From: Polynucleobacter sp. MG-27-Goln-C1
Lineage (GTDB): Bacteria; Pseudomonadota; Gammaproteobacteria; Burkholderiales; Burkholderiaceae
Length of the DNA stretch: 64,000 nucleotides
Direction: 5' to 3'
Assembly (NCBI RefSeq): GCF_018881905.1
Contig: NZ_JACVPM010000002.1
Coordinates: 248,001-312,000, forward strand
Shown here: piece after piece, positions 1 to 14,295 of the stretch
How the letters are laid out: every line of letters begins with the position of its first letter
Position numbering within the stretch: position 1 is the first letter of the stretch
Notes under the pieces: generated by a model
What the model was told of the DNA's origin: nothing
Seen by the model: the letters and a program-made list of their open reading frames with translations, nothing else
Database searches by the model: none
Made by a program: the position numbers and the translations under genes

Positions 1-30
1 GGCTGATTTTTTCTTATCATCCAAGGCCAT
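1..30 (-). CDS. recA: RecA recombinase, first 10 codons (cut by window edge)
   Basis: Reading leftward from an ATG at 30 gives MALDDKKKSA, which matches the usual amino terminus of betaproteobacterial RecA; the rest lies outside the window. An AAGGAA Shine-Dalgarno sits about 7 bases before the ATG, and a perfect LexA-type box lies upstream. RecA is the strand-exchange and LexA-coprotease protein of recombination and the SOS response. The call rests on ten residues plus the SOS box, so it is likely but not proven. Confidence 0.7.
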   Translation of the reverse strand, partial: MALDDKKKSA

Positions 31-102
31 TTTTTAATTCCTTTTCGCTATGTATTGGGCTATTTCCCGTAGTTTTCGTGCTTTTCAACAACTCAGAAGT
101 TA

Positions 103-118
103 CTGTATATAAAAACAG
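103..118. promoter_or_regulatory. LexA (SOS) box upstream of recA
   Basis: The sequence is CTGT, eight A/T bases, ACAG, exactly the CTGT-N8-ACAG LexA consensus, flanked by further complementary bases (TA before, TA after). It lies about 75 bp upstream of the recA start, as expected for an SOS-controlled recA promoter. Confidence 0.8.
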
Positions 119-148
119 TAGTATTTGCAAGCGGCTTTTTTAAGGAAT

Positions 149-682
149 TTACGGATTTTTTACTAGGCCATCCATGATTGAGGTGCGGTCCCAGTAGAAA
201 AATAGGGGGATAGCAATACCCCAAACAAGCCCAACCAAGATAAAACCAACGGTCTGACTGCCAGCACCCCAGCCCCCAGCACCCATGCGAATACCAGCCT
301 CATAGGACATTGGCCCGCAGATAGCCCCTAAAATGAAGCCTAAAACAGGCCTGCCTCTCAACCATGACAGGGAGCCATTAATTGTGCCGCCAACCAGCAC
401 CCATAAAACCCACATCCAAAGAGGTGATAAGTACGGGGAAGGCCAGTCATCCTGAAAATTAAGATATCCCAGGTGCATGATGATGGTGTCGGCGACGATG
501 CCATAAACCAAGACCTTGACAAGGAGCCTCAGGGCTAACTTGGGCGCATGATGACGCCAAATAGTGAAGGTGACATAAGTTAATGTGCCTAAGACAGCCC
601 AAAGGACCTGCTTATTGGCCGCACCCAAAACACATGCAAACCAACCAACTTGGAAAAAGACGAAGTTCCAAAATTTAGCCAT
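149..682 (-). CDS. DUF2878-like membrane protein
   Basis: A small integral membrane protein of unknown function, 177 aa from the chosen start, with about five hydrophobic helices and Gly/Trp-rich segments. The beginning MAKFWNFVFFQVGWFACV resembles DUF2878 proteins; that family assignment is from memory. The reading frame extends to a GTG at 721, but the ATG at 682 gives the start expected for the family, so I prefer it. The gene lies between recA and tRNA-Met, reads in the same direction as both, and belongs to the chromosomal flank rather than the island. Confidence 0.7.
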   Translation of the reverse strand: MAKFWNFVFFQVGWFACVLGAANKQVLWAVLGTLTYVTFTIWRHHAPKLALRLLVKVLVYGIVADTIIMHLGYLNFQDDWPSPYLSPLWMWVLWVLVGGTINGSLSWLRGRPVLGFILGAICGPMSYEAGIRMGAGGWGAGSQTVGFILVGLVWGIAIPLFFYWDRTSIMDGLVKNP

Positions 683-747
683 CGATCGAACCCAAGCGAC
701 ATTACCTAAGAAAAAGGCCACTGCCGGTGGGCAATGGCCTCTTGATA

Positions 748-824
748 TGGTGGCGAATCAGGGATTTGAACCCCGGACCTGCGGATTATGATTCCGTCGC
801 TCTAACCAGCTGAGCTAATTCGCC
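748..824 (-). tRNA. tRNA-Met (anticodon CAU), hybrid with island-supplied 5' half
   Basis: The minus strand from 824 to 748 folds as a full 77-nt tRNA with encoded CCA: acceptor stem GGCGAAT/ATTCGCC, D-loop AGCTCAGCTGGTTAGAGC, anticodon loop ATCATAA (CAU) and T-arm GGGGTTCAAATCCC. The elongator type is most likely because the first acceptor pair is G-C; a tRNA-Ile with modified CAU is the alternative. Bases 1-38 are duplicated at 11064-11102, so an element has integrated here and regenerated the gene. Confidence 0.95.
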
Positions 825-845
825 GAACTCGTTATTGTAAATGAT
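786..845. repeat. Left attachment repeat of the island
   Basis: This 60-bp segment recurs at 11064-11123 in the same orientation with a single mismatch (833 T against 11111 A). It starts at the last base of the anticodon loop of tRNA-Met and runs through the tRNA 5' end plus 21 bp upstream. Identity breaks sharply on both sides (A/T at 785/11063, T/C at 846/11124), as expected for att sites of a tyrosine-recombinase element. Confidence 0.9.
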
Positions 846-862
846 TGCAGTGGTGCTGTGCA
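834..862 (-). promoter_or_regulatory. Promoter of tRNA-Met, partly island-derived
   Basis: On the minus strand TACAAT (839-834) serves as -10, with TGCACA at 17 bp (862-857) or TTGCAC at 18 bp as -35. The -10 lies inside the att repeat, while the -35 lies in island DNA. At the other end of the island the original upstream sequence still has TACAAT preceded at 17 bp by TAGACA, so the integration exchanged the -35 element. Confidence 0.6.
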
Positions 863-882
863 AATGTGCGAGTCTGTGCAAA
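856..882. repeat. Direct repeat CTGTGCAAA x2, 18-bp period, inside the left att
   Basis: CTGTGCAAA occurs at 856-864 and 874-882 in the same orientation. The location just inside the element end is where arm-type integrase or excisionase sites are often found; the first copy overlaps the -35 region of tRNA-Met. The functional reading is an inference. Confidence 0.4.
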
Positions 883-945
883 CTCTGTCTATTTAAGCTG
901 TCCGTAGGTTTCTTTACGGTGCTGAATCCTGTCCGGCTTTCCCTG

Positions 946-1131
946 CTACGCAGAAACTGCTTTTTTTAACTTTTCTTGTGCTTTTGATACTTTTTGGCGC
1001 TTTCTTTCAGCGTCTAACGCTGTTTTGGCACGTTCTTTCTGCGCTTTTAATGCTTCTATGCGTGCCTGACTGGGATTAAGCGGCTTTATTGTGGCGACGG
1101 AATGCATTTCCGTTATTTCTTTGTATCTCAT
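946..1131 (-). CDS. Small basic helical protein, unknown function
   Basis: A 61-aa reading frame with a Lys/Arg/Glu/Ala-rich helical body (KPLNPSQARIEALKAQKERA...) and no membrane segment, consistent with a small nucleic-acid-binding or coiled-coil protein of a mobile element. The first ATG (1131) has no clear Shine-Dalgarno; an internal ATG at 1107 has a close GGA. It is divergent from the next gene at 1171. Function is unknown and the coding call is moderate, based on biased composition and position. Confidence 0.5.
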   Translation of the reverse strand: MRYKEITEMHSVATIKPLNPSQARIEALKAQKERAKTALDAERKRQKVSKAQEKLKKAVSA

Positions 1132-1170
1132 ATAGAGTATTTATTGAGAAAGCCAAATAAAAGGAACTAA

Positions 1171-1389
1171 ATGAATCTACATCGCTTTTATACCTTCACT
1201 GATGATGAAGGCAAAAACACAGAGCTTTCGGTTGGTGATGACAGAAATATGTATATCAATGGCAGAAAGATTATTACTGAAAGCAAACTAGAGTTGAGTT
1301 GGTGGGTGAACGTAGCGGCAGTACTGGCTGGAATAGGTGCAATAGGCTCTTTTTTACTTGAACTACTAAAAACCCTTAAATGGATTTGA
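1171..1389 (+). CDS. Small single-pass membrane protein, unknown function
   Basis: A 72-aa protein with an acidic polar first half and one hydrophobic helix at roughly residues 45-65 (WWVNVAAVLAGIGAIGSFLLELL), ending KTLKWI. The ATG is preceded by AAAGGAAC at good Shine-Dalgarno spacing, which supports real translation. It is one of the few plus-strand genes at the left end of the island. I do not recognise the family; small membrane proteins of this kind occur in phages and toxin-antitoxin or exclusion systems, but nothing specific points to one. Confidence 0.6.
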   Translation: MNLHRFYTFTDDEGKNTELSVGDDRNMYINGRKIITESKLELSWWVNVAAVLAGIGAIGSFLLELLKTLKWI

Positions 1390-1391
1390 GG

Positions 1392-1538
1392 CTAACCAAT
1401 CCGTAACGGTTGATGCGGCACGTTACTTGAACCAAAGATCGCTTGGAATAGTTTGTATGCTTGTGCTTGGTTCTGTGCGTAGAGAATTGTTTCTACCCAC
1501 ATTCCTGCTGCATTGACTGTTGCCTTATATCGCTTCAT
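1392..1538 (-). CDS. 48-aa conserved-looking small protein downstream of int1
   Basis: The minus strand from ATG 1538 to TAG 1392 encodes 48 aa beginning MKRYKATVNAAGMWVETILY, continuing AQNQAQAYKLFQAIFGSSNV and ending PHQPLRIG. The pattern (a beta-strand start, W-V-E-T, then an amphipathic helix) is like small phage or ICE proteins I have seen next to integrases, but I cannot name a family. It is co-directional with int1, and a palindrome copy lies between the int1 stop (1579) and this start. There is no strong Shine-Dalgarno, so translation may depend on the int1 transcript. Confidence 0.55.
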   Translation of the reverse strand: MKRYKATVNAAGMWVETILYAQNQAQAYKLFQAIFGSSNVPHQPLRIG

Positions 1539-1551
1539 ACAAGTATTTAGT

Positions 1552-1572
1552 GGTGTCGTTTTAAACGACACC
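1552..1572 (-). repeat. Island palindrome copy 1
   Basis: A perfect odd palindrome with 10-bp arms, GGTGTCGTTT, centre T, AAACGACACC. It is the only copy whose plus-strand centre reads TTTTAAA instead of TTTAAAA, so it is inverted relative to the other five. It lies 6 bp past the int1 stop and 13 bp before the 48-aa reading frame. Confidence 0.9.
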
Positions 1573-1578
1573 CATTAC

Positions 1579-2604
1579 CTAAACCAGTACCTTCAAAATC
1601 ACATCTCGTTTTTGCTCAAGTGTGTAGCCGACAGTTCCGTAGGTGTTGAAATCCGAACCTCCACTACTGTGCCCAGTAATACTTTCAGCGAGTCGCGTGG
1701 GTATATCGTTCCTAGCCTTCATCCTATCAATGATTGCGTGCCTAAACATATGACTTTTAAAGTCAAGCTCCTTTAGCGTCTTTTTAATGATTTGAGAACA
1801 ACTGGAGTTGCCGTTGTCTCTCGCATAATGCGGCACAAACCATTCGCTTCTTTTCGTTCTCGCAATCTTATATAGCTCTTTAGCGGCATCCAACGAAACT
1901 CCACACAATGGCACAGCACGAATACTTGATTTAGTCTTTCTATCGCTTAACGCATTCCGTCTAATCCACAAATGAGGTATGTCGTGCTCGAGCACACAGT
2001 CTTCCAGTCTTGCAAATACTGGTTCAGATAGCCTAAATCCGGTATTCAGCTGTATTAAGGCAACGAGCTTATGTGGTGTGGAGTTTCTTAGTAAACATTC
2101 TTTAACTTGATTGATTAGCTGGGTAGTAATAATGGGCATTGGACGCTTAATATCCCCTTCACCTCTAATCTTCAAAGCTCTAAATGGACTGAGTCTATCT
2201 ATATCCAAATGTTTGAATGCAACATTGAGCATCGCATTGAGTGTGTTGTTATGTTTCCTAACGCTTGTAGGGTTTAATCCACGCTGAAGCTGATAGTCTC
2301 GATATTCGGTGATGTGCCAATGCTTTAGTTCATCTAAAGTCAAATCACCAAAAAACTCTTTAAAGCTACGGAAGTGATAGTTCGCGTGTTTAACGAATGT
2401 AGGGCGATGAGCGGAAGCACTTTCATTCATATAAATCTTAAAAGCGTCAGTAATGGTAGGCATCCTGCCTTCCTTTTGCCTTGCTAAATGCTCACTTACT
2501 ACCTTAGCCAAAAACTCTTCTTCAAAGTTCATTCCGTTTACATTGATTAAACGCTCGACTTTGTCAAAGACGATTGGGTATGGTTTTATTACGATGCTAC
2601 GCAT
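1579..2604 (-). CDS. Tyrosine recombinase / integrase 1
   Basis: A 341-aa phage-type site-specific recombinase. The amino half (about 50-140) resembles a SAM-like core-binding domain; the catalytic domain shows R191 (TGFRLSE), K225 (RKTKSS), H285-x-x-R288 (HMFRH), H312 (TGHSS) and nucleophile Y322 (NTYG), so the active site looks complete. The start at 2604 has an AAGGAA Shine-Dalgarno. Being the recombinase nearest the left att it could drive excision or integration. It is the only gene lying wholly between palindrome copies 1 and 2, which are in inverted orientation. It is probably co-transcribed with the upstream DUF6641-like gene. The substrate site is unknown. Confidence 0.9.
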   Translation of the reverse strand: MRSIVIKPYPIVFDKVERLINVNGMNFEEEFLAKVVSEHLARQKEGRMPTITDAFKIYMNESASAHRPTFVKHANYHFRSFKEFFGDLTLDELKHWHITEYRDYQLQRGLNPTSVRKHNNTLNAMLNVAFKHLDIDRLSPFRALKIRGEGDIKRPMPIITTQLINQVKECLLRNSTPHKLVALIQLNTGFRLSEPVFARLEDCVLEHDIPHLWIRRNALSDRKTKSSIRAVPLCGVSLDAAKELYKIARTKRSEWFVPHYARDNGNSSCSQIIKKTLKELDFKSHMFRHAIIDRMKARNDIPTRLAESITGHSSGGSDFNTYGTVGYTLEQKRDVILKVLV

Positions 2605-2643
2605 AGTTTTCCTTATTAAAGTAAAGTTGGATTACTCAGCGAA

Positions 2644-2666
2644 GGGTGTCGTTTAAAACGACACCC
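2644..2666 (+). repeat. Island palindrome copy 2 (longest, 23 bp)
   Basis: A perfect palindrome with 11-bp arms around a central A: GGGTGTCGTTT / AAACGACACCC. It lies 9 bp past the DUF6641-like stop and 40 bp before the int1 start, in the junction of these two co-directional genes. Confidence 0.9.
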
Positions 2667-2675
2667 CTTACCAAC

Positions 2676-3116
2676 TTACTTCTGAAAACCCGCCTTTAGC
2701 GCCCCACTGGCTGTTTCGATTTGCGTATCTAGCTCACCTTGCTCAACAGCAGACTTAATGGTTTCCAATGCCTTCACTAAGTTTTGGGCACTATCAACTT
2801 CTACGCTGTGCTTACCTTTAGCAAGCTCAATGACTTTTGTTCCATATTTGACTGACACGCAGACTTTGCCAGCATCATTTTTAAACCACCATTCGCGTAT
2901 ACGCTTGGGGATTTCTACTTGGCGACGCAACCCCGTTTCCTTATCTTTGACGCTTTTAAACTTCGTCACCACAAAAGGTGTGCCATCTATATGACTTTTG
3001 GCTAGTTGGATTTGCTCCCACAACTTATTTGAAAGTTTATTTCTGCGAAACACGATTGCAGGAATATGGGTTGGCTTTTTAGCTGTTGTTAGCTTGAGTG
3101 AATCTAATGTGCTCAT
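2676..3116 (-). CDS. DUF6641-like protein
   Basis: A 146-aa soluble basic protein. The layout (MSTLDSLKL start, RRNKL, a KRIREWWF motif, VCVSVKYGTKVIELAKGK, and a final ELDTQIETASGALKAGFQK) matches what I recall as DUF6641, a family seen in phages and integrative elements of beta- and gammaproteobacteria; the name is from memory. The WW-containing strand region suggests a DNA- or protein-binding fold, but no function is established. It is upstream of int1 in the same direction, with palindrome copy 2 between them. The start has a good AAGGAG-like site (revcomp of ctcctt at 3122-3127). Confidence 0.75.
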   Translation of the reverse strand: MSTLDSLKLTTAKKPTHIPAIVFRRNKLSNKLWEQIQLAKSHIDGTPFVVTKFKSVKDKETGLRRQVEIPKRIREWWFKNDAGKVCVSVKYGTKVIELAKGKHSVEVDSAQNLVKALETIKSAVEQGELDTQIETASGALKAGFQK

Positions 3117-3656
3117 TTATTTCTCCTTGTTTATGAATGGGCACACTTAATGTATTGCCTGAAAACCTACGAGGACAACCTGTATTTGTCTGGCTATATG
3201 TAAGAAATGGATAGGAAATGTTACGAAATATTTGGTTTCATATAAATAACTATACAAATGAGATATAAAAGTTGGCACGCTGAATGTAATAGTGCTGTTA
3301 AATCCGTTCTGATGTGTGACGGTAAACAATAGGGTTGCTCATTACTCGCTGTATCGCACTACCTAGCTTGATGCTAGATGCCTTAAATGCCACACCACTG
3401 TGTAGAAGCGTTTGCGATGCTGTAATGGTTAGTAGCGTAGTAATACGCGAATGTAAGCAAATATAAAAATGTATAGGCTGAAAGTGAGTGGGACTGCCAC
3501 AATGAAACCCACAAACAATCCACAAAGCTACTGATATAGGCTGTGGAATTGTTGCGTTAGACGAGCACATAAAAGGTGATAGCAAAACCTACCTTATCTT
3601 GTTAAATCAAGTTGTGTGTATATCAGTTGTTAATCCTCAGTAAAGATGATTAGCTA

Positions 3657-3688
3657 CAAGCCACGCTTGCAAATAGAAGCGTGGCTTG
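3657..3688. repeat. Perfect 12-bp inverted repeat (hairpin)
   Basis: CAAGCCACGCTT (3657-3668) and AAGCGTGGCTTG (3677-3688) are perfect complements around an 8-nt loop. There is no U-tract on either strand, so it is not an ordinary terminator. It is bracketed by two direct copies of AGTAAAGATG at 3639 and 3697. Confidence 0.75.
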
Positions 3689-3719
3689 TGCTTCCTAGTA
3701 AAGATGCCTTAAAAGCAAT

Positions 3720-3849
3720 ACCAATATTTAATCTTGTAATCAATCAATTGAAAAAATGTGTGAGTAAAAGCGATAGCTTTTGCGAAACACAAGCAGACTG
3801 CAAAGCAGGTTGCTTATAAACTAATCTACTTACAATAAGATTAATTGGT
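3720..3849. other. Branched inverted-repeat structure, candidate RNA or origin
   Basis: The outer arms 3720-3739 and 3830-3849 pair over 17 bp (ACCAAT, TAATCTT and GTAA blocks, with one 3-nt bulge per strand). Inside are two hairpins: GTGT...AAAAGC-gata-GCTTTT...ACAC (3757-3790) and AAGCA-ga-CTGC-aaa-GCAG-gt-TGCTT (3791-3815). Together they form a three-way junction. This much nested complementarity in 130 bases is unlikely to be chance; the role is unknown. Confidence 0.55.
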
Positions 3850-3863
3850 AATTAATAGAAAAC

Positions 3864-3887
3864 AAAAAAGCTACCCAAAGATAGCTT
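3864..3887 (-). terminator. Rho-independent terminator of the lipoprotein gene
   Basis: On the minus strand AAGCTA, an 8-nt loop, TAGCTT is followed by TTTT, 19 bases past the lipoprotein stop codon. The stem is short, so efficiency may be modest. Confidence 0.55.
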
Positions 3888-3905
3888 AATAAAAGTTACC
3901 AAAGT

Positions 3906-4463
3906 TTATGTCTTAGGCACTAGTTTTTTTAGCTCCTCTACAATTTTTGTTGCAAAAGACTCATACATCCAATTCATTCTTGTGTCTGTATCCCCCATTG
4001 CGCCACCAAATGCATAAGTGATATCCACTTCAAAGCTATCAATTACCTTATCTCCATTTTTGACATATATCTGTCCAGTTATAGAATCAGCCCCCGCTAA
4101 AAATCCCAATAGGATTGCTGATACACCTGACCTAACTCTTATATTAGTAATGACAACATCAATTTTAGAGTTCGAATTATTATTTTGAGTTTGCAGGTAT
4201 TGATTTTCAAGTAAAGTTGAGTTGATTTTGTTGTATAGCCTATCTTTACTAAAATTTTCGTTATCCTTTAATTTATCTTGTGCGTTAGCATCTAGTGTGA
4301 CGGTTAAACTTTTAAGTGGTAAAAACTTAGTTATTTGCACTGTCTCTTCTTTGACATTAGATGTTTCTTTAATGTTAGATGTATTTCGATTTACTGTTGA
4401 CGCACATCCAGCAATAGCTAATGCAATCAGTACAGGAAAAATACTAAAAAATATTCTTTTCAT
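3906..4463 (-). CDS. Lipoprotein, DUF4410-like
   Basis: A 185-aa exported lipoprotein. Residues 1-20 form a signal peptide with lipobox AIAG-C20, so the mature protein should be anchored by Cys20. A polar Asn/Lys/Thr-rich linker follows, then a domain with a hydrophobic Gly-rich strand (SGVSAILLGFLAGADSITG) and a final amphipathic helix ending KKLVPKT; this resembles the DUF4410 fold (from memory). It is downstream of the outer-membrane barrel gene in the same direction but separated from it by a terminator. With that gene it forms the envelope cargo of the island; the function is unknown. Confidence 0.75.
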   Translation of the reverse strand: MKRIFFSIFPVLIALAIAGCASTVNRNTSNIKETSNVKEETVQITKFLPLKSLTVTLDANAQDKLKDNENFSKDRLYNKINSTLLENQYLQTQNNNSNSKIDVVITNIRVRSGVSAILLGFLAGADSITGQIYVKNGDKVIDSFEVDITYAFGGAMGDTDTRMNWMYESFATKIVEELKKLVPKT

Positions 4464-4484
4464 TTCAAATCCTTTTTGTTAAAT

Positions 4485-4511
4485 AAAAAAGCCACTTGTT
4501 ACAGTGGCTTT
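4485..4511 (-). terminator. Rho-independent terminator of the outer-membrane protein gene
   Basis: Minus strand: AAAGCCACT, 6-nt loop, AGTGGCTTT running into TTTTTT, 23 bases after the stop at 4535. A 9-bp perfect stem with a U-tract is a standard intrinsic terminator. Confidence 0.8.
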
Positions 4512-4534
4512 AAATGAAGATTTAAATATATAAC

Positions 4535-5197
4535 TTAAAACTTGTAACCTAAGCCAACTAAGATGTTTGTCGCATTAAGGCTTGATGTTACTGAAGTAGT
4601 CAATAAACGCCCACTCACTACAGCCGATTGATTAGATGTTTGATTGCCGTAGCTTGCGTAATTAACTTCACCGAAGCCGTATAAGCCTCCAGTAATGATT
4701 TGCTTATATCCCAAGCCAACAGAGTATCCTGTGTAATTAGTTGTATCGCCACCAGTATCGGCTGACGCTCCTGTAAATCCAACTTTTGCATAAGCAACTG
4801 CGTCAGCACCAACAGCTAAACCTGGCGATATGAAAATATTGTAAGAATTTTTCTTATTGTATGTACCACCAGCAACTGATGTTCCAGCAATGTTGTAGGT
4901 AATGTTTTGTTTCTGCCCTTCAATTGGTGAATACTCGGCACCAATGCCTAACAAGAAATCTTTATTGACAGCAAAGGTATAACCAAGTGTTGCTGTTCCA
5001 GCAAAACTATTGGAGTTATTCAATGAAATTGAAGATGGGACATTTACTCCACCATAGTTGAATGTAGTTGAAGTTGATGGAGCAACACTCTCATAACCAA
5101 TACCAACTTGACCGTAGAACCCTTCAAACTTTGACTGCGCCATTGCACTTGTGCCTGCCACAGCCAATAACGCGGCAACCAGTAATTTCTTTTTCAT
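4535..5197 (-). CDS. Outer-membrane beta-barrel protein (OmpA/Opa-like small porin fold)
   Basis: A 220-aa protein with a Sec signal peptide (MKKKLLVAALLAVAGTSAMAQ, cleavage after AMA), then alternating amphipathic strands with Tyr/Gly pairs (GFYGQVGIGYES, ATLGYTFAVNKDFLLGIGAEYS, YSVGLGYKQIITGGLYGFGEVNYASYG) and a terminal LVGLGYKF ending in Phe, the signature for BAM-dependent insertion. It should be an eight-stranded barrel. It is divergent from the winged-helix gene at 5359 with a 161-bp shared region holding two palindromes, which suggests regulation by that protein. Carrying a surface protein could alter phage or surface recognition of the host, but that is inference. Confidence 0.85.
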   Translation of the reverse strand: MKKKLLVAALLAVAGTSAMAQSKFEGFYGQVGIGYESVAPSTSTTFNYGGVNVPSSISLNNSNSFAGTATLGYTFAVNKDFLLGIGAEYSPIEGQKQNITYNIAGTSVAGGTYNKKNSYNIFISPGLAVGADAVAYAKVGFTGASADTGGDTTNYTGYSVGLGYKQIITGGLYGFGEVNYASYGNQTSNQSAVVSGRLLTTSVTSSLNATNILVGLGYKF

Positions 5198-5222
5198 TTT
5201 TAACCCTATAGTTTTTGATGTT

Positions 5223-5239
5223 GTTACAACATTTGTAAC
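5223..5239. promoter_or_regulatory. Palindrome GTTACAA-CAT-TTGTAAC, candidate operator
   Basis: A perfect 7-bp-arm palindrome with a 3-bp centre lies 26 bp upstream of the outer-membrane protein start, in the region shared with the winged-helix gene. The size and position fit a dimeric regulator's operator overlapping a promoter or leader. Binding by the neighbouring regulator is an inference. Confidence 0.5.
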
Positions 5240-5330
5240 TATGTATGGTTATAAGGATTGAGTACATTTAATATAGATACGAACTTCGTAGCTTAATTTC
5301 GTAGGAAATCTAAGTGATTGAAATTACAGT

Positions 5331-5354
5331 CTTTAAGTTATTAAAAACTTAAAG
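5331..5354. promoter_or_regulatory. Palindrome CTTTAAGTT-N6-AACTTAAAG before the winged-helix gene
   Basis: Perfect 9-bp arms around ATTAAA end 4 bp before the GTG start at 5359. It may be an autoregulatory operator or a leader hairpin hiding the start. It differs in sequence from the palindrome at 5223, so one protein need not bind both. Confidence 0.5.
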
Positions 5355-5358
5355 CACT

Positions 5359-5730
5359 GTGGATACTGAGCAACACTTACTAGTAATAGATTTACTTGTC
5401 GTTATACGCAAGCAAGCTACTCGCCACTTGCCAATTGGACATTCGTTTATCCCATACGATATTTTGGTTGTAGTGGTTGGTGACGCATTAAATAACAATG
5501 AACTTACTGTCAAAGCATTATTTGCTAGCTTGCCTTACAGCGATATGGGGTTGCGATATCACTTTCGCAAGCTAATAGAGGCTGGGTGGATTGAATTACA
5601 CTCAACAACAAGCGATGCTAGAGTTAAAAAAGTAAAGCCAACAGAAAAATTATCAATACAGTTTGCATTATTCTCAAATGCAATTACTACACAACTGCAA
5701 ACACCTCAAATCAGCCCTACAAGCACTTAA
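5359..5730 (+). CDS. Winged-helix DNA-binding protein (MarR-like size)
   Basis: A 123-aa protein with a helical first half (residues 5-45), a helix-turn-helix at about 48-75 (LTVKALFASLPYSDMGLRYHFRKLIEAGWIEL) and a basic wing at about 80-96 (DARVKKVKPTEKL). The phrase HFRKLIEAGWIEL...DARVK is typical of MarR/winged-helix regulators where the second helix selects between targets. The only plausible start is a GTG with no visible Shine-Dalgarno, close behind a palindrome, so expression may be tightly limited. It is divergent from the outer-membrane protein gene. It is probably a local regulator; DNA targets are unproven. Confidence 0.75.
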   Translation: MDTEQHLLVIDLLVVIRKQATRHLPIGHSFIPYDILVVVVGDALNNNELTVKALFASLPYSDMGLRYHFRKLIEAGWIELHSTTSDARVKKVKPTEKLSIQFALFSNAITTQLQTPQISPTST

Positions 5731-5773
5731 CGCAATATTGCGAATATCTGCTTAACAGGGATTATTAAAAACA

Positions 5774-5871
5774 GCGTATAGACGCCATACGCAAGTCTTC
5801 CTAATTCTGTGGGAGATAGACGACAAATCCACTAAATACCTATATATAACCAAATATGCAAAAGGTTATAT
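5774..5871. promoter_or_regulatory. Two inverted repeats upstream of integrase 2
   Basis: GCGTAT-N7-ATACGC (5774-5792) and ATATAACC-N12-GGTTATAT (5844-5851 with 5864-5871) lie in the 288-bp leader between the winged-helix gene and int2. The second has an AT-rich centre like an operator over a promoter. The remaining bases of this gap look like ordinary AT-rich leader with no further gene. Confidence 0.4.
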
Positions 5872-6018
5872 TTCGCCCGAAAAAATACACATCTCATTGA
5901 TTTATGGAAGGATTTTCATTTAATGCACATCGGACAAAAAGAGGTAGGAAAAAATAAACAAAGAAAACATACTTTAGACATAGCAAAACTTTGGTTGGGC
6001 ACAAAAAAGGAGCAGACT

Positions 6019-6603
6019 ATGTCAAAGCAAGCAAAAACACTCAGTCAGGTAGAACTACGCAGAGTACTTGATTACATTGCAACCCGTAAACACGCACTAC
6101 GTAATAGAGCAATGCTGTTAATCACCCATTTAGCCGGATTAAGATGTGGAGAGGTTGCGGCACTACGCTACAAAGATGTTGTAAGTGCTGATGGCATAGT
6201 TAGAGATGAAATACGCTTAAGTAGCGAACAGACAAAAGGTGGCGTGGCAAGAACGGTGTTCGTAAGCGAGCGCCTACGCAAGGAGTTAGAGCAATATGTC
6301 GCTTTCTTCCGCTTATGCAAGTTACAAGATTCAAATGTGAAGTTCTTTTACAGTCAGAAGCGTGATAGTGACGGCTTCACATCAAATACTTGTGCCCAGT
6401 ACTTTCATTATCTTTACAAAAAGGCAGGTATTGATGGTGCTAGCAGTCACAGCGGAAGACGTAGTTTTGCCACCGCTATTGCATCGAAGGGTGTCGGTAT
6501 AAAGGTTCTGCAAAAACTTTTAGGGCACAAAAATATTCAAACTACTTCGGTTTACATCTACGCTAGCGACGATATGCTCCGTAAAGCAGTTGAGTTAGTA
6601 TAA
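6019..6603 (+). CDS. Tyrosine recombinase 2, short catalytic-domain form
   Basis: From the ATG at 6019, which has an excellent AAGGAG site, the protein is 194 aa, about the size of FimB/FimE invertases and lacking a normal core-binding domain. Catalytic residues are R42 (AGLRCGE), K73 (QTKGG), H144-x-x-R147 (HSGRR), H170 (LLGHKN) and Y179 (TSVYIY). An upstream ATG at 5923 would add 32 residues but has no ribosome site. The short form suggests a DNA inversion or resolution role rather than phage-type integration; its sites could be the island palindromes, which is inference. It is the only plus-strand recombinase of the three. Confidence 0.85.
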   Translation: MSKQAKTLSQVELRRVLDYIATRKHALRNRAMLLITHLAGLRCGEVAALRYKDVVSADGIVRDEIRLSSEQTKGGVARTVFVSERLRKELEQYVAFFRLCKLQDSNVKFFYSQKRDSDGFTSNTCAQYFHYLYKKAGIDGASSHSGRRSFATAIASKGVGIKVLQKLLGHKNIQTTSVYIYASDDMLRKAVELV

Positions 6604-6605
6604 AA

Positions 6606-6631
6606 AAAGCCCGCTAACATCAGCGGGCTTT
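6606..6631. terminator. Hairpin terminator between convergent int2 and ATPase genes
   Basis: AAAGCCCGCT, 6-nt loop, AGCGGGCTTT: a perfect 10-bp stem. The minus strand continues with a long T-run (seven A on plus at 6602-6608), the plus strand only with TTT, so it serves mainly the ATPase gene and partly int2, whose stop is 2 bp away. Confidence 0.75.
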
Positions 6632-6637
6632 GAGTCA

Positions 6638-6652
6638 GTCGTTTAAAACGAC
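6638..6652 (+). repeat. Island palindrome copy 3 (15-bp core)
   Basis: GTCGTTT-A-AAACGAC, 7-bp arms; the next pair is a mismatch. It lies 4 bp past the ATPase stop codon and just beyond the terminator hairpin. Confidence 0.85.
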
Positions 6653-6656
6653 AGCA

Positions 6657-7352
6657 TTAGGCGGCGAGCTTTAAATGCCCACCATTCTTTTTGTAATGCT
6701 TATTGATTAAGTCCCTTGCAGCCTGCATTACTTCTCTTGCACTTCCGTTGCAAAGCCCAATAATCCCTAAAGCAACTTCGTCTGTAACGTGTGTTACGCC
6801 ATAGTCATTAAGTATTTGCTTGAACTTAGGAAGCCACGCTGTTGCAGGTGCCGCATTGAATTCAACACGAATACATCTATCCATAACGCCCCGCTCAATC
6901 ATTGATAGTCTGTTAGTGGTGAGAACAAAGATACACTCAGTGCCGCCGATACTCATTGCAGCTTTAAGCGAATCCATTGCCTCTACTCGCAAGTTATCAA
7001 CTTCGTCTAGTACAAAATAGTGATAACGGTTATAGGGCATCAGAATTGCTCTTTTCTTAATACCTTCAATAACCCCAGCTCCATTATCCCCACCTTGCGA
7101 TATACCAAAGTAAGTAACTACGGGTTCACTCTCGCCTGTTCGTGCTTGCTCAATCAAACTAGGCAATATTTTCGCTAATGCCGATTTGCCAGTGCCATTC
7201 ACCCCATATAGCAAGATGCCATTTTTACCGCTAGCGGGAAAACCATTCATACCAGACACACAGTCTTCAATCGTTTCCCGCGTTTCTTCCGAGTGATACA
7301 CAATGTCGTTTAAAACGACAGGGGTGTATTTTTCTTCAAAATCATTAAACAT
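6657..7352 (-). CDS. Clamp-loader-like AAA+ ATPase
   Basis: A 231-aa AAA+ protein. It begins like replication factor C subunits (EKYTPVVLNDIVYHSEE), then Walker A GVNGTGKS (50-57), Walker B FVLDEVDN (113-120), sensor 1 LTTN (144-147), an MDRC arginine-finger-like motif (R159) and sensor 2 GSAREV (R206). It lacks the carboxy-terminal collar domain of true clamp loaders. Such stand-alone RFC/DnaX-like ATPases occur on phages and plasmids and may load a helicase or remodel a recombination complex; the partner here is unknown. Palindrome copy 4 encodes residues 12-16 (VVLND). It follows the 262-aa gene in the same direction, behind that gene's terminator. Confidence 0.85.
   Translation of the reverse strand: MFNDFEEKYTPVVLNDIVYHSEETRETIEDCVSGMNGFPASGKNGILLYGVNGTGKSALAKILPSLIEQARTGESEPVVTYFGISQGGDNGAGVIEGIKKRAILMPYNRYHYFVLDEVDNLRVEAMDSLKAAMSIGGTECIFVLTTNRLSMIERGVMDRCIRVEFNAAPATAWLPKFKQILNDYGVTHVTDEVALGIIGLCNGSAREVMQAARDLINKHYKKNGGHLKLAA
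7304..7320 (+). repeat. Island palindrome copy 4, inside the ATPase gene
   Basis: TGTCGTTTAAAACGACA, 8-bp arms, lies 33-49 bases after the ATPase start codon. Its minus strand is read GTC GTT TTA AAC GAC (VVLND), part of a motif that in clamp-loader subunits often reads xxLxDIV. Confidence 0.9.
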
Positions 7353-7376
7353 TTACAACCTCCATTTTTATCGAAT

Positions 7377-7408
7377 AAAAAAGGGGCAAAGCAGTTACGC
7401 TTTACCCC
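7377..7408 (-). terminator. Rho-independent terminator of the 262-aa gene
   Basis: Minus strand: GGGGTAAAGC, 6-nt loop, GCTTTGCCCC then TTTTTT. It lies 15 bases past the stop at 7424 and about 25 bp before the ATPase start, so the ATPase gene probably needs its own promoter or read-through. Confidence 0.8.
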
Positions 7409-7423
7409 TGTAGTTACTACATA

Positions 7424-8212
7424 TTAAGCAGCGTTATTGATAGCGTCGCTTAATGTTGAGTCATTGCTAGCTTTAGCACGCTCGTCAGCTTTTGTTTTAA
7501 TGCTGTCTTTGTTAGCAGAGTAGTACGCAGACAAAGCAGTATTTACAGCTGTTTCGCTATACGTAACCGCATTAGCAACAAGTTCGCCGTTAGCTTGTTG
7601 TGTAGCAACAATAACCACTTGTTGCCCCACCTTTGCACTATCAAGCTGTTTAGCTAATGCTTCGCTACTAACTTTCGCTAAAGACTGTTCTGCAACAGTA
7701 TTTTTAGCAAGTTCAGCTTTAGCTTTAGTGCTTAAAGCATTGCCTTTAGCTAAGCGGATTTCTTGCACACCACCCCTGCTTTCAATAAAACCTGCAATTT
7801 GTGCTTCAGTTTTATTTTCAGCAAGTGCCGCACGTAAAACAATGCTGTAAGTGCTTGTACGACGTCTATCAGCACCAAACACACACTTAACAATTTTTGT
7901 AAGCGTATGTGATGTTTTAGCAAACACATACCCTTTTAAGTTAATGTGTGTCTTTAAATCTTCACGCATTTGTTCTGCTTTTTCATTGTCTTGCGACATT
8001 GAAAGATACGTGCCATAGCAACGTGCCAGCAACTTATATAACTGCTCATTGCTTGTACGAGCTACTGTGTTTTCCCAAGCCTCTCTATCCAGCACTAACT
8101 GCTCGATAAACGAGAACTTATAACTACTACTTTGAATATTGCTGTCGTTTAAAACGACAGTAGCGTTATCAGCAGTAGTTTTAACAGGGTTATTGAACAT
8201 TTTTTCTAACAT
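7424..8212 (-). CDS. Unknown 262-aa island protein
   Basis: A soluble, helix-rich protein without membrane segments. Residues 30-140 look like a globular helical domain with a basic stretch (KIVKCVFGADRRRTSTYSIVLRAAL); residues 150-262 are Ala/Lys/Ser-rich and repetitive, suggesting coiled coil or low complexity. I do not recognise the family. It starts MLEKMFNNP, similar to the ATPase start MFNDFE, and both carry VVLND encoded by a palindrome copy at almost the same distance from the start. It lies directly upstream of the ATPase and is divergent from the 8349 gene. The pairing suggests the two act together. Confidence 0.75.
   Translation of the reverse strand: MLEKMFNNPVKTTADNATVVLNDSNIQSSSYKFSFIEQLVLDREAWENTVARTSNEQLYKLLARCYGTYLSMSQDNEKAEQMREDLKTHINLKGYVFAKTSHTLTKIVKCVFGADRRRTSTYSIVLRAALAENKTEAQIAGFIESRGGVQEIRLAKGNALSTKAKAELAKNTVAEQSLAKVSSEALAKQLDSAKVGQQVVIVATQQANGELVANAVTYSETAVNTALSAYYSANKDSIKTKADERAKASNDSTLSDAINNAA
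8142..8160 (+). repeat. Island palindrome copy 5, inside the 262-aa gene
   Basis: CTGTCGTTT-A-AAACGACAG, 9-bp arms, lies 53-71 bases into the gene, read on the minus strand in the same frame as copy 4 (GTC GTT TTA AAC GAC, VVLND). Confidence 0.9.
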
Positions 8213-8319
8213 CTCAAACTCGCTTTCTTTTTTATTTAAAAATAAGATGTGTTAATAAAATATCAACCTCATCTATAACTACTATTTTACTTTTTATCGA
8301 TTTATTGAGATACTGCAAA

Positions 8320-8339
8320 GCAATTTGATGCAATTTGAT
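8320..8339. promoter_or_regulatory. Tandem 10-bp direct repeat GCAATTTGAT x2
   Basis: Two abutting exact copies lie 10 bp before the ATG at 8349, in the 136-bp divergent region. A 10-bp phase puts both on one face of the helix, so it may be a regulator or initiator site; only two units are present. Confidence 0.45.
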
Positions 8340-8348
8340 TGTTAATAA

Positions 8349-9089
8349 ATGACTAAAAATCCCGTTCACTTTCTTGCTCCTTATCCACTGTTTGGAACAA
8401 AGCAAAAACCACTATCAATTTCTTACCAACAAAGAAGTCCGTTTTATTGGTGGTGGGCATATTTACGTCGTAATGACAACTACCTAAAGTGTTGCGAGAG
8501 GAATGGCGCAGGCAAGCTCGCAGACTTGTATAAAGAGTTTGGGGATGTGAGAGAAGATGATTTTAAAAAATGGTGGAGTGAAAACAACAGGGGTGCTTAT
8601 CTATTTGGAGAGAAACGAAGTGCTCTTGTCCCAAAAGAACTAAGCGACAAGTCGGAGTGGGAAGAGGATTGGAATTCTGAGAATGTGCTCGTCTTAGCAC
8701 TGCCTCTCACAATGAGTAAAAGAGAGTTACAAAGTCGCATTGCCAAAATACTTAAAAAGAGGCATACGGCTAAAAGAGGCAGAACTGCAAAAAAATTAGA
8801 TAAAAGTACTGCTAGATTTCCGCTTAACCGAAACTACACAATTGAGAGTCTTCAAAAGGCACTAGATGTCTATGACTGCTTCACAAAGCTAGTAGAGTTA
8901 AATGGCAAAGCTAAGCTATGGGAGGTTGGAGTTGAATTGAGATTAGTTAGAGGTGCTATGCCATCACCGAATGATTTAAAACAAGATACAGCCGCTAAAC
9001 GAAACGTAATGGCGGCAACTGTTAAACGCTACCTCAAACAGGCTGAATCAATCATTGCCAATACTTCACTAGGTATCTTCCCCAGCTAG
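8349..9089 (+). CDS. Unknown 246-aa island protein, aromatic N-terminal motif
   Basis: A basic soluble protein beginning MTKNPVHFLAPYPLFGTKQK. The most striking part is an aromatic run near residues 30-45 (SPFYWWWAYLRRNDNYLKCCE) followed by FGDVREDDFKKWWSENNRGAYLFGE; residues 120-245 are helical and very Lys/Arg-rich. I have an impression of similar proteins in integrative elements but cannot name a family. There is no Shine-Dalgarno before the ATG, so it may be leaderless or start elsewhere. It leads a plus-strand pair with 9162 and is divergent from the 262-aa gene. Confidence 0.7.
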   Translation: MTKNPVHFLAPYPLFGTKQKPLSISYQQRSPFYWWWAYLRRNDNYLKCCERNGAGKLADLYKEFGDVREDDFKKWWSENNRGAYLFGEKRSALVPKELSDKSEWEEDWNSENVLVLALPLTMSKRELQSRIAKILKKRHTAKRGRTAKKLDKSTARFPLNRNYTIESLQKALDVYDCFTKLVELNGKAKLWEVGVELRLVRGAMPSPNDLKQDTAAKRNVMAATVKRYLKQAESIIANTSLGIFPS

Positions 9090-9161
9090 CTGGCAACCCA
9101 TTAGCTATCGGATTATGTTACTTTTGCTATGGACAGCAACTAACTTGAATTAGGAATGGAT

Positions 9162-9614
9162 ATGGCAAGAGCACCGTTTAATGGTAAAAAAATGGTTGAA
9201 GCGGCAGAGGCTGGCGAGCTGTCACCTACTCAAGTTCGTCAAGCACTAAAAAGAGCTTCAGAACTTGGTTTATACGCGGAAGCGAAGAGACTTACAGAAT
9301 TTCTAGTGCAAGCAAATGAGTTTGCTGACGATGGCGCACCCAAAGAACTAAAAGAGCGTGTAGCAAAAGGAATTAGCCTACTAAAAGGGCTGGGATACCA
9401 TCCGACTCGAACTCAGCGAAAGTTAGGTAAAAAAGGAGTTGTCATTACGCTTAACGACATCGCCATAAAACCAACTGTCGGCGATAACTTTAGACGGATG
9501 GTGTCTGCTGGCTACAAAGACTACACAACAGAAGCTATTGTTTGCGACTACCCGCAAGTCTTCAGCAAAGATGCAGTTGATGCGTCCACACTGAAATTAA
9601 AGAAATTTAAGTAA
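9162..9614 (+). CDS. Unknown 150-aa island protein
   Basis: Start taken at the ATG 9162 because AGGA lies 7 bases before it; an ATG at 9156 would add two residues. The first 60 residues form helices (PTQVRQALKRASELGLYAEAKRLTEFL) of helix-turn-helix-like spacing; the middle is basic (HPTRTQRKLGKKG) and the end is a compact domain ending LKLKKFK. I do not recognise it. It lies downstream of the 8349 gene, 72 bp apart, and is convergent with integrase 3; palindrome copy 6 fills the 35-bp gap between their stops. Confidence 0.7.
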   Translation: MARAPFNGKKMVEAAEAGELSPTQVRQALKRASELGLYAEAKRLTEFLVQANEFADDGAPKELKERVAKGISLLKGLGYHPTRTQRKLGKKGVVITLNDIAIKPTVGDNFRRMVSAGYKDYTTEAIVCDYPQVFSKDAVDASTLKLKKFK

Positions 9615-9627
9615 ACAGGCTATAAAA

Positions 9628-9648
9628 GGTGTCGTTTAAAACGACACC
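9628..9648 (+). repeat. Island palindrome copy 6
   Basis: GGTGTCGTTT-A-AAACGACACC, 10-bp arms, lies exactly between two convergent stop codons (9614 and 9650). As RNA it would form a hairpin, but neither strand has a U-tract, so it is not a clear terminator. Confidence 0.9.
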
Positions 9649-9649
9649 A

Positions 9650-10861
9650 CTAAGCCAGCTTCTCAGCATTCATCATTGGGGTGATTTTGCTGTAATGCCG
9701 CTCAATCATTAAGACGCTTGTACCCATCTGCTTAGCCAGCGTGTGAATATCTACCCCACTAGCCAATGCCTGCGTTGCATAGGTATGCCTCAAGCTATAC
9801 AGCGTTCTATTCTGCCCAGCACCATTTTTGAGCAATCCGCTCTTTTTCATTAAGTGCCGAAAGATGTTTTCCAGCAAATGGGGCATTTCACCTGTGGGGA
9901 GCGTAAATATCAATCTATCGAGTTTTATTTCGATTATTTCCCCCAAACTGGCATATGGGAGCTTCTGCCAGTGCATTAACCCCTCTAAAACCTCTAAAAC
10001 AGCGTTTTTAGCGATTAAATACCTCTGCCCTGTCTTGCCACTCACCCATATGCGTAAGTACCGCTTATCGCCGATATAGTGCCATTGCAGGTGCTTCCAC
10101 CTCAGCGGCATAGACTCGGTGCTGTGCCTTACCCCTGTATTCACCAAAAACTGAATGTAAGCGGCACACAGCACTCTGACTTCACCCGAATGCCTATGGT
10201 GCACATCTTTTTGCCAAATCGGAAAGTAGGTATACAACTGCTCTAACTCTTCTTGTGTGAAAGCGGGACGAGGCTCGCTCTTTGCACCAGCAATGTTTAG
10301 CAACGGAACAATCTTATTTTGCGAAATCTGTCCAAGCTCTTTTGCCAACGTCACCACTCTGTTGTATGCCAGTGCGTGATGTTTTTTAGTTGTCGCTTTT
10401 GATTCTTTGCCCATTACCGAAGTTCTCCACGCTTCAAAGTCTGCAACTAACTCTTGCGTGATTTCACCAACTTTGTATTTTCCGAAAAATGGAATGAGAT
10501 ATTTTTGCCAGATAAAGAAATAATCTTTGTAGTTACGCTCACCTCTCTTGCCATTCGAAGTACGACGCATATTTGCCATCTCTTCTAATGCTAACTGTCC
10601 AAATGTTTTTTCTGTGAGTGCCAATCCTGCGTCAATTTTTATGCGGACAGTTTCATAAAGAACTATGGCATTGCGTCTAGCTTCAGTTAGCTCGTCTGTA
10701 CCAGTGCTTGCCGAATGCCACTTGTTATTTGCCAGCTTAAAGCGGCATTGCCATTGTGCCGACTGGGGACGCTTATAGACAGTAACCTTCCCGTCTATAA
10801 GCCTTATAGCCTTTGGGGTTGCGGGGATGGGGTTTGCAAAGAGTTGATTGAGATTAGACAT
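9650..10861 (-). CDS. Tyrosine recombinase / integrase 3, phage type
   Basis: A 403-aa integrase with an amino-terminal arm-binding-like domain (residues 20-80), a core-binding domain (about 85-190) and a catalytic domain with R245 (TGVRHSTE), K276 (SGKTGQ), Y355-x-x-R358 (YSLRHTYAT, Tyr in place of the usual His), T381 (MGTS, in place of His) and nucleophile Y390 (ERHYSKI). These substitutions are common in the LGTSV-type branch, so the enzyme may well be active. It lies 200 bp from the right att repeat and points away from it, which makes it the best candidate for the integrase that placed the island in tRNA-Met. Confidence 0.9.
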   Translation of the reverse strand: MSNLNQLFANPIPATPKAIRLIDGKVTVYKRPQSAQWQCRFKLANNKWHSASTGTDELTEARRNAIVLYETVRIKIDAGLALTEKTFGQLALEEMANMRRTSNGKRGERNYKDYFFIWQKYLIPFFGKYKVGEITQELVADFEAWRTSVMGKESKATTKKHHALAYNRVVTLAKELGQISQNKIVPLLNIAGAKSEPRPAFTQEELEQLYTYFPIWQKDVHHRHSGEVRVLCAAYIQFLVNTGVRHSTESMPLRWKHLQWHYIGDKRYLRIWVSGKTGQRYLIAKNAVLEVLEGLMHWQKLPYASLGEIIEIKLDRLIFTLPTGEMPHLLENIFRHLMKKSGLLKNGAGQNRTLYSLRHTYATQALASGVDIHTLAKQMGTSVLMIERHYSKITPMMNAEKLA

Positions 10862-11029
10862 ACACGCTTAGTGTGCTGTCGTCTTGCATTTTCTACGACG
10901 ATTATTTTTGCTTCGTCGTCAAAATCTCACACGACGTTCTGCGAACGCAGATTAGTGCGTGTAAGTATTTTTTGATGCCATTGTTTTTGGTGTGTAGTGG
11001 GCGGGATTTTTTGGGTATGCTTAAAACAA

Positions 11030-11051
11030 TGTTTTAGAACTGTTTTAGTAC
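11030..11051. repeat. Tandem 11-bp direct repeat just inside the right att
   Basis: TGTTTTAGAAC and TGTTTTAGTAC abut (10 of 11 identical), ending 12 bp before the att repeat. The position fits arm-type sites for integrase or an excisionase. The rest of 10862-11029 is AT-rich with scattered CGACG/CGTCG words and no gene. Confidence 0.45.
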
Positions 11052-11063
11052 TCAAAAATATTT

Positions 11064-11123
11064 TTATGATTCCGTCGCTCTAACCAGCTGAGCTAATTCG
11101 CCGAACTCGTAATTGTAAATGAT
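11064..11123. repeat. Right attachment repeat with orphan 5' half of tRNA-Met
   Basis: It is identical to 786-845 except for one base. Bases 11064-11102 are tRNA-Met positions 1-38 without the 3' half, so this is a remnant, not a gene. The ancestral promoter (TACAAT at 11112-11117, TAGACA at 11135-11140 on the minus strand) is still attached to it and may now transcribe the remnant into the island. Confidence 0.9.
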
Positions 11124-11156
11124 CAGGCGCCTTCTGTCTAAACCAAAGGGCTCAAA

Positions 11157-11567
11157 CTACTTAATCTGAAAGACGCTGACTGCCTCATCCCGGTTGTAGC
11201 GAATAAAAACCTCGATTTTCTTAGCTAGAAAGAGCTTTTTCAGAACCTCATCCTTATTTTCAAAAATGATGGCTGTTTGCTCTGGAAAGCGAGAAAAGGG
11301 ATCGCTCATCACCTCGATAGGCTGTCCATCCACCTTAATGAGGCGAATGGTGCGCTTATATAGCCGGTCAGGCTGAATGAAAATCAGACGCTTGACGTAC
11401 TTATCTAAAACTAGCTTTTGCCCCTGTTCATTGGTCTTGAAGTAATAGACCAACTCATCTTTGCCATTGGTAGTGACATCCCGCTCCTCATCCCACTTGG
11501 CGAATGCGGTTGAGCTGGCAATCACACAAAAAATTGCTACCACCAATAATCTATAAAGATGCATCAT
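11157..11567 (-). CDS. Exported protein of unknown function
   Basis: A 136-aa protein with a clear Sec signal peptide (MMHLYRLLVVAIFCVIASSTAFA, cleavage before KWDEE). The mature part is about 113 aa, charged, with alternating strands (DELVYYFKTNEQGQKLVLDKYVKRLIFI) and no cysteines or membrane helices, so it is probably periplasmic. I do not recognise a family. It is the first chromosomal gene past the island and, before integration, probably lay just upstream of tRNA-Met in the same direction. It is divergent from the MOSC gene with a 46-bp gap. Confidence 0.75.
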   Translation of the reverse strand: MMHLYRLLVVAIFCVIASSTAFAKWDEERDVTTNGKDELVYYFKTNEQGQKLVLDKYVKRLIFIQPDRLYKRTIRLIKVDGQPIEVMSDPFSRFPEQTAIIFENKDEVLKKLFLAKKIEVFIRYNRDEAVSVFQIK

Positions 11568-11613
11568 TTACTTTCTTAGTTCGACCATTTCATCTTATCA
11601 GTCAACTGCACCT

Positions 11614-12225: not shown

Positions 12226-12262
12226 TTGCTGTAATTAATCGCTGTAATTCATTTCTAGCAAT

Positions 12263-12297
12263 AAAAAACCCGACCACATAGTGGTCGGGTTTAGTTT
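12263..12297. terminator. Bidirectional terminator between MOSC and MFS genes
   Basis: AAACCCGACCAC, 3-nt loop, GTGGTCGGGTTT: a 12-bp perfect stem with T-runs on both strands, between two convergent genes. Confidence 0.85.
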
Positions 12298-12317
12298 TTG
12301 AAACAGACTAGTAAAGC

Positions 12318-13988: not shown

Positions 13989-14295
13989 CAGTAGCTCCTA
14001 ACTATTTTTATTGAAATAAAAAACAACGGGTCGATTATGCTTTGAAAAAAATCAAAGAAATCCACTAGTTAGGGTAATTCCCCATCAAATCGGCTCGGGG
14101 TTTTCCCGAGAATTTAGCAATTAGATGGGGTCTAAACAACAATTTGAAGTGAATGGCTCCAAATACACGGATCGAGCAATGCGCCCAATTAAAGTGCACA
14201 CTCTATCTATATAGCCTACAAAATTCGCTCTAATAGAGACTAAATACAAACAATAAAAAACTTTTTCAATAAAGTACTTCAATGGAGAAATCAGC
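13989..14295. other. 307-bp divergent regulatory region
   Basis: It lies between the MFS and gamma-glutamyltransferase genes and holds no gene. A hairpin CTCGGG-gtttt-CCCGAG (14094-14110) lies in the likely leader of the MFS gene. The right part is AT-rich and should hold the promoter of the gamma-glutamyltransferase gene, which has a GGAG site. Confidence 0.5.

Follow-up and report, generated by a model that had tools for sequence, protein, structure and literature searches.

A stretch of 64,000 nucleotides from the genome of Polynucleobacter sp. MG-27-Goln-C1 (contig NZ_JACVPM010000002.1, positions 248,001 to 312,000; hereafter the window) contains an integrative element of ∼10.3 kb whose edges are formed by two copies of a 60-nt direct repeat, resembling attachment (att) sites, at a tRNA-Met gene. 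The element encodes three tyrosine recombinases, a DUF6641 protein, a clamp-loader-like AAA ATPase and unassigned proteins, and carries six copies of the short palindrome GTCGTTT-W-AAACGAC, referred to here as the dyad (Table 1). As far as sequence comparison goes, these dyads are a maintained, lineage-specific site system of a family of integrative elements, nearest in kind to an operator/stoperator set.

The dyad occurs exactly six times in the window, its 15-mers starting at 1555, 2648, 6638, 7305, 8144 and 9631, and a search of the same 64 kb allowing up to two mismatches recovered no further matches. Shuffled windows gave a mean of 0.15 copies and a maximum of 2. The complete host genome (2,009,108 bases in 11 contigs) holds the same six copies, all located between the two repeat copies, so that the core is not scattered at chance frequency and the family is confined to the island, as the original prediction had proposed. 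Counted with the outer pairing bases, the arms of copies 1 to 6 measure 10, 11, 7, 8, 9 and 10 bp, which reproduces the range of 7 to 11 bp and the spans first reported. The 8-bp arms GGGTGTCG/CGACACCC of the original recombinase-core reading fit copy 2 only; the unit actually shared is TGTCGTTTWAAACGACA, with the outer T/A pair present in five of the six copies. The centre reads A on the plus strand in five copies and T in one.

Two close relatives (L219 from genome G060 and L049 from genome G032) have the core genes in the same order and orientation as the window element. Four sites are common to the three elements, and there the compared bases of the 17-bp core all agree (204 of 204), versus 305 of 480 in the 20-bp flanks, a figure from ungapped comparison that flank indels depress somewhat. 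The arms are thus not free to substitute in relatives, and the view that the dyad is maintained and not part of a duplicated gene gains support. Copy 3 is also present in L219, and in L049 with a single substitution. Copy 4 is complete only in the window, both relatives having a half-site beside common Asn-Asp codons; by this comparison, the copy in the AAA gene is a new or recent one in the window element. Since copies 4 and 5 sit in the same frame of two different genes, AAA and p262 both contain the peptide VVLND (7305-7319 and 8144-8158), which in p262 is part of an N-terminus modelled without structure.

The window element belongs to a family of integrative elements (L219-L278) with a six-gene core (DUF6641, the Xer-like recombinase int226, p246, p262, AAA and int403), in which the order and orientation of modules vary. 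Sixty locus regions were chosen from p262/AAA match lists, and site types were assigned by hand to 49 of 64 loci; four overlapping loci (L237, L232, L264 and L275) were excluded from the gene-end control, the tRNA-side counts and the fragment count given below. Five versions of the dyad, differing symmetrically from one another, were recognized in Polynucleobacter elements: GTCGTTT..AAACGAC (G), GTCCTTT..AAAGGAC (C), GTTGTTT..AAACAAC (T), TGTCGTG-N5-CACGACA (H) and GTCGG..CCGAC (X/Y). The loci assigned to types G, C, T and H have the respective dyad as their most repeated palindrome in a de novo search. Most X and Y assignments rest on the targeted pattern GTCG-N7-CGAC and not on the de novo search; its 46 occurrences in 22 loci, versus 2.7 in shuffled loci, are not due to chance, ten of these loci (L277 and L273 among them) have a single site, and X and Y intergrade. 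The G-type loci carry 2-8 copies per 12-20-kb stretch. The centre of G sites is A/T in 417 of 422 matches, a figure of little weight, since an A/T centre was part of the pattern by which the loci were fetched, and in H-type elements the central bases vary among copies within one element. The de novo lists of L253, L275 and L225 also contained other repeats; the untyped relative L275 has another repeated palindrome, GCGTAA-N7-TTACGC, at 6178, 8249 and 14456.

Within the genus, the G 15-mer was found in 122 of 186 genomes (the source genome counted), often clustered, as compared to 11 of 186 for a reversed-pattern control counted by hand, and the C-type sequence GTCCTTTWAAAGGAC in 87 of 186. The expectation that the core travels with the same genes holds in part: a G site is present in 57 of the 66 genomes with a p262 match, but also in 65 of the 120 without one, so that many sites occur without p262 in the genome. 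A p262 profile matched 19 of 299 family-level genomes, 18 from the same genus and one from another, and had no match in phage or plasmid collections. Among the pattern matches listed from outside the genus, six from Pelagibacteraceae (L079, L095, L100, L110, L119 and L129) have the 17-mer in one stretch with both flanks in common, and three named Bacillales fall in one flank family, two of them on both flanks. Because each group represents a single conserved stretch, these matches are probably coincidences within coding DNA.

The places occupied by the sites are regular. Y-type elements have a site 72-85 bp before p262 (9/12) and 82-84 bp before int403 (10/12), X-type elements one 87-88 bp before int403 (6/10), and C-type elements one 89-124 bp before int403 (3/7); for X and Y pooled, a site precedes int403 at -82 to -88 in 16 of 22. 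In the other types a site lies inside p262 at +45 to +84 (G 9/15, C 5/7, T 1/1, H 3/4), where the DNA site dictates the peptide, being VVLND in G, VLLKD in C and VVLNN in T. A site also occurs 1-16 bp past the int403 stop (G 9/15, C 3/7, H 4/4), and others lie no more than 43 bp past the stops of int403, DUF6641, AAA, int226 and p246, with one overlapping the stop by 1 base. Overall, 41 of 86 G, 17 of 37 C and 14 of 22 H sites fall within 40 bp past a stop codon, for a random expectation of 3-4%. The corresponding number for X/Y sites is 8 of 39, while 22 of 39 lie upstream of a start codon by no more than 150 bp (random 8%). Of the seven C-type elements, six (L233, L234, L256, L257, L259 and L264) have a C site whose start is 266 bp away from that of a tRNA-Phe fragment, although the surrounding sequence may simply be homologous. 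Judged by position, this placement is the pattern of regulator binding sites plus extra copies at gene ends.

Table 1. Dyads, genes and ends of the window element. Occurrence is given as the number of the 49 typed elements with a relative, gene sharing being counted by single-linkage clusters.
Feature	Position	Strand	Remarks
tRNA-Met	748-824	-	5' half covered by 60-nt repeat
attL-like 60-nt repeat copy	786-845		tRNA-Met 5' half plus flank
Dyad copy 1	1552-1572		Core 9 bp past int341 stop; same in L219 and L049
int341, tyrosine recombinase, 341 aa	1579-2604	-	7/49
Dyad copy 2	2644-2666		Core 13 bp past DUF6641 stop
DUF6641 protein, 146 aa, core gene	2676-3116	-	PF20346, E=4.2e-15; 43/49
int226, Xer-like tyrosine recombinase, core gene	5923-6603	+	Conserved part is catalytic domain only; 48/49
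Dyad copy 3	6638-6652		Converging ends of int226 and AAA; 4 bp past AAA stop, 34 bp past int226 stop
AAA, clamp-loader-like AAA ATPase, core gene	6657-7352	-	phrog_168, E=5.8e-19; 48/49
Dyad copy 4	7304-7320		Within AAA gene at +33; encodes VVLND
p262, family unassigned, core gene	7424-8212	-	Candidate site-binding protein; 49/49
Dyad copy 5	8142-8160		Within p262 gene at +54; encodes VVLND
p246, family unassigned, core gene	8349-9089	+	43/49
Dyad copy 6	9628-9648		Core 4 bp past int403 stop; converging ends of p152 and int403
int403, tyrosine recombinase, 403 aa, core gene	9650-10861	-	Other candidate site-binding protein; adjoins attR; 48/49
attR-like 60-nt repeat copy	11064-11123		98% identical to attL-like copy

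A further open frame of 61 aa near attL (946-1131) has relatives in 33 of the 49 typed elements, and an Rfam search of window positions 1-16000 returned tRNA only.

The explanation best in keeping with these places and with the lineage-specific versions, and to which about an even chance is given, is that the palindrome serves as a double-stranded binding site for a symmetric, probably dimeric, element-encoded protein, in the manner of an operator or stoperator, and is used near att as well. The operator had been among the alternatives named at the outset. Such a protein would repress its own gene and the integrase gene via operators, would act as a stoperator-like two-way roadblock at gene ends, where owing to its symmetry one site could serve both converging genes, and would join the att complex. 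Sites on non-autonomous cassettes at tRNA-Phe genes would permit helper elements to act on them in trans. Should this explanation hold, the type of a site would foretell the helper able to act on a given cassette, and there would be a sequence handle for following how gene cassettes lacking an integrase of their own move between aquatic genomes.

Either p262 or int403 is a candidate for the site-binding protein, and the data do not decide between them. Leaving out L277, identity across site types reaches at most 98% for int403, 97% for DUF6641, 91% for int226, 84% for AAA, 76% for p246 and 63% for p262; with L277 included, it rises to 99% for int226, 90% for AAA and 92% for p262. The mosaic element L229 has C sites, and its AAA, int226 and p246 are nearest to G-type elements, while int403 (97%) and p262 (70%) are nearest to C-type elements, pointing to one of these two proteins. 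Two columns of int403 discriminate G from C elements. The structure model of p262 has a mean predicted local distance difference test score (pLDDT) of 75.5 and a predicted template modelling score (pTM) of 0.51, those of DUF6641 being 86.6 and 0.75. A second structural comparison, with best Z scores of 4.8 for p262 and 5.3 for DUF6641, gave no relative that could be named, and scans of Pfam, PHROG and NCBIfam gave no clear family match for p262.

Several observations weigh against a binding protein with type-specific sites, or against one of its candidates. Fifteen of the 64 loci have no type assigned, and the types are impure: G sites, 1-2 in number, are also found in each of the seven C-type loci, and C sites in four of the 15 of G type (L227, L228, L266 and L270), the off-type sites of mixed loci lying at least in part within neighbouring cassettes. 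No X-type element (0/10) has a site near p262, and in p262 the only column to discriminate G from C elements is the residue that the site itself encodes. Locus L231 has G sites, yet its p262 and int226 are nearest to C-type elements and its AAA ties, which speaks against p262 as the binder. Conversely, L246 has an int403 98% identical to that of the window together with five H-type and two exact G-type sites, which speaks against int403. In genomes G014 and G017, which contain 5 and 6 G sites, p262 has no match and no int403 relative was recovered at E<=1e-60. Also, a Foldseek search with the p262 model gave no clear match, the best E being 1.9 in the PDB and 0.26 in a viral library. As to its composition, L246 (genome G100) is a mosaic in which int403 and DUF6641 are 97-98% identical to those of the window; its two G-type sites lie near int341 and DUF6641 and the H-type sites elsewhere.

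Occurrence of the sites beyond the six-gene elements was analyzed in tRNA-associated islands. In the first 20 islands, ARAGORN predicted tRNA-Phe in 15 and tRNA-Met in 3; these were the first-listed, mostly clustered matches, and the array statistics are therefore biased towards rich islands. The tRNA-Phe islands consist of tandem cassettes of ∼1-3 kb bounded by copies of the 3' part of the tRNA that all point in the same direction in a given locus. Arrays of this kind were seen at L037-L047 and L051-L053 (for example L043, 3438-13052). Within 350 bp on the 3' side of 107 tRNA-Phe fragments, a G site is present at 41 and a C site at 29, with 21 fragments having both, 20 G alone and 8 C alone; 23 of the 29 C sites lie at 100-125 bp. 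On the opposite side of 108 fragments, G is near 16 and C near 12. For 17 tRNA-Met fragments, a G site was found on the 5' side in 5 (four at 121 bp, one at 84 bp) and on the other side in 3, and a C site on neither. A count of best matches no farther than 260 bp from 108 distinct tRNA-Phe fragments gave 42 exact and 4 one-off for G, and 29 exact and 8 one-off for C; the two-off best matches (8 for G, 17 for C) include the other type. Exact sites are retained by cassettes in genomes devoid of p262. Loci L038, L040 and L044 have an int403-like integrase about 285-355 bp away on the other side of the tRNA, that of L038 with an internal stop. Nine proteins of L043 and one of L045 were inspected as cargo and include a bicarbonate transporter, a cupredoxin, GGDEF and HD proteins, a glycosyltransferase and a superoxide dismutase. 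It seems that many cassettes may be moved in trans.

A tentative reading, plausible enough to be set out although improbable, is that the palindromes are an address code, in an integron-like trade of cassettes at the tRNA gene that is driven in trans by several non-equivalent helpers. Autonomous six-gene elements would then carry mainly one version, and cassettes without those genes would carry G, C or both, at preferred distances from the tRNA-derived att core and readable by either helper type.

It is rather unlikely, but deserves weighing, that the palindrome is itself a recombination core, cut by a tyrosine recombinase (int226, Xer-like and lacking an N-terminal binding domain) that shuffles modules and gains cassettes. 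In a first test of recombination hotspots, 132 alignment ends fell within 10 bp of sites versus 9.7, and of 139 G sites, 62 had an end no farther than 10 bp away, versus ∼6 for shifted positions. The module AAA-p262-p246 is inverted between the window element and L048 on the one hand and L226, L228 and L235 on the other, and where L227 and L229 have a single site, L226 has two, separated by 4.56 kb. Alignment ends within 10, 20 and 40 bp were found for 58.6, 64.8 and 71.7% of G sites (n=145) and for 39.7, 56.4 and 80.8% of C sites (n=78), versus 8.6, 14.2 and 23.6% of random positions (n=1026). However, gene 3' ends without a site (n=937) reach 18.8, 42.6 and 59.0%, so the excess of breaks at sites is largely a gene-end effect, and at the 10-bp distance the identical site itself anchors the alignment. 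In addition, the window element, L219 and L049 are collinear at their common sites even though identical copies are located within p262 and next to several genes, the flank-pair screen passed no inversion candidate, and int226 is up to 91% identical between G-type and C-type elements, with no discriminating column. Centres vary within H-type elements, whereas the G type has inverted arms about a centre of fixed length that agrees between partner sites. The loxP/FRT-like core initially suggested is weakened accordingly; given the similar clustering of breaks at gene 3' ends, strand exchange may occur at the sites but is not needed. For the same reason the half-flank families, in which the same gene end is joined at a site to several partners, are retained as description only.

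Action at the RNA level, with the palindrome forming a hairpin at gene ends as a terminator or as the target of an RNA-binding protein, is a doubtful alternative. All six window copies can fold as RNA, five of them better than all 200 shuffles, many sites directly follow stop codons, and a T run is present after copy 6 and after some H-type copies. Relative to a re-pairing null, outer arms show excess pairing at positions 3-5 of H-type sites; in G elements, and likewise in the X/Y group, a single position does so. Some H-type dyads merge with long hairpins and a T run on one strand, terminator-like, as in L243 (10927), L245 (9603) and L244 (8064). In the window, a T run directly after the stem, as in an intrinsic terminator, is seen in copy 6 only, on the minus strand; a loose scan adds copy 4, with the tail TTGTGTAT. 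The hairpin that had been listed originally thus keeps support in folding and in H-type outer arms, but poorly explains the G sites of cassettes and the C-type sites, where outer-arm pairing is at chance and a double-stranded site is therefore simpler. The search design itself fixes the A/T-rich middle of the G and C sites, but near misses are few (4 one-off versus 42 exact for G near tRNA-Phe). Besides, X/Y sites are upstream of start codons, and some sites have an ordinary terminator-like hairpin as a separate structure next to them or close by.

It is very unlikely that the dyads are dispersed sites for partition (parS-like) or for replication that work together with the clamp-loader-like AAA protein. 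Several identical dyads per element do accompany a conserved AAA ATPase, but the sites keep regular distances from att and from the start codons of p262 and int403, exact sites are kept on cassettes in p262-less genomes, and no ParA/ParB match to Pfam, PHROG or NCBIfam was obtained among the genes scanned, some proteins remaining unassigned. Least probable is a selfish short repeat of the repetitive extragenic palindromic (REP) or miniature inverted-repeat transposable element (MITE) kind, as had also been considered, since site type goes with element lineage and homologous place and the host chromosome has no copy outside the element, even if copy 4 is recent, with only a half-site in L219 and L049.

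Other known systems offer partial parallels to a symmetric binding protein encoded by the element. In the dual regulators and excision factors P2 Cox and 186 Apl, a single element protein binds several sites at att and at promoters; no protein of the Cox/Apl kind was detected in family scans of the element proteins. The letters of the dyad motif and DUF6641 were not mentioned in the literature searched.

With regard to the cassettes, Alteromonas is one of the groups for which additive flexible genomic islands have been named. Those of Methylophilaceae, as outlined in the relevant portions of PMC10872708, likewise have variable gene sets with repeats of the tRNA end, but the arrays of Polynucleobacter differ in their palindromic sites, the string "palindrom" occurring 0 times in that paper. 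The tycheposons of aquatic bacteria, by the description in the same portions, share tRNA-associated cargo and tyrosine recombinases (PMC10872708). Tandem 1-3-kb cassettes at tRNA-Phe with one or both site versions seem to be new.

The closest counterparts are the stoperators of cluster A mycobacteriophages (L5, Bxb1, TipsytheTRex), which, in the sections of PMC6550527 and PMC9283540 that deal with them, occur as many copies of a short site in promoters and short intergenic gaps. In both systems one short site recurs many times over a mobile genome, related elements have related but distinct versions of it, and a copy adjoins the gene of the repressor, here that of a candidate. As portrayed in those sections, L5-type stoperators are asymmetric 13-bp sites that point in the direction of transcription; a genome has 20-30 of them, and the repressor that binds them is known and monomeric (PMC6550527, PMC9283540). 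In contrast, the Polynucleobacter sites are symmetric dyads of 15-17 bp, fewer in number and in part near att, and because of this symmetry they are not members of the mycobacteriophage system. If the binding-site explanation is correct, stoperator-like control would have a second representative, in a freshwater bacterial genus, with sites that are symmetric and whose changes of specificity can be seen.

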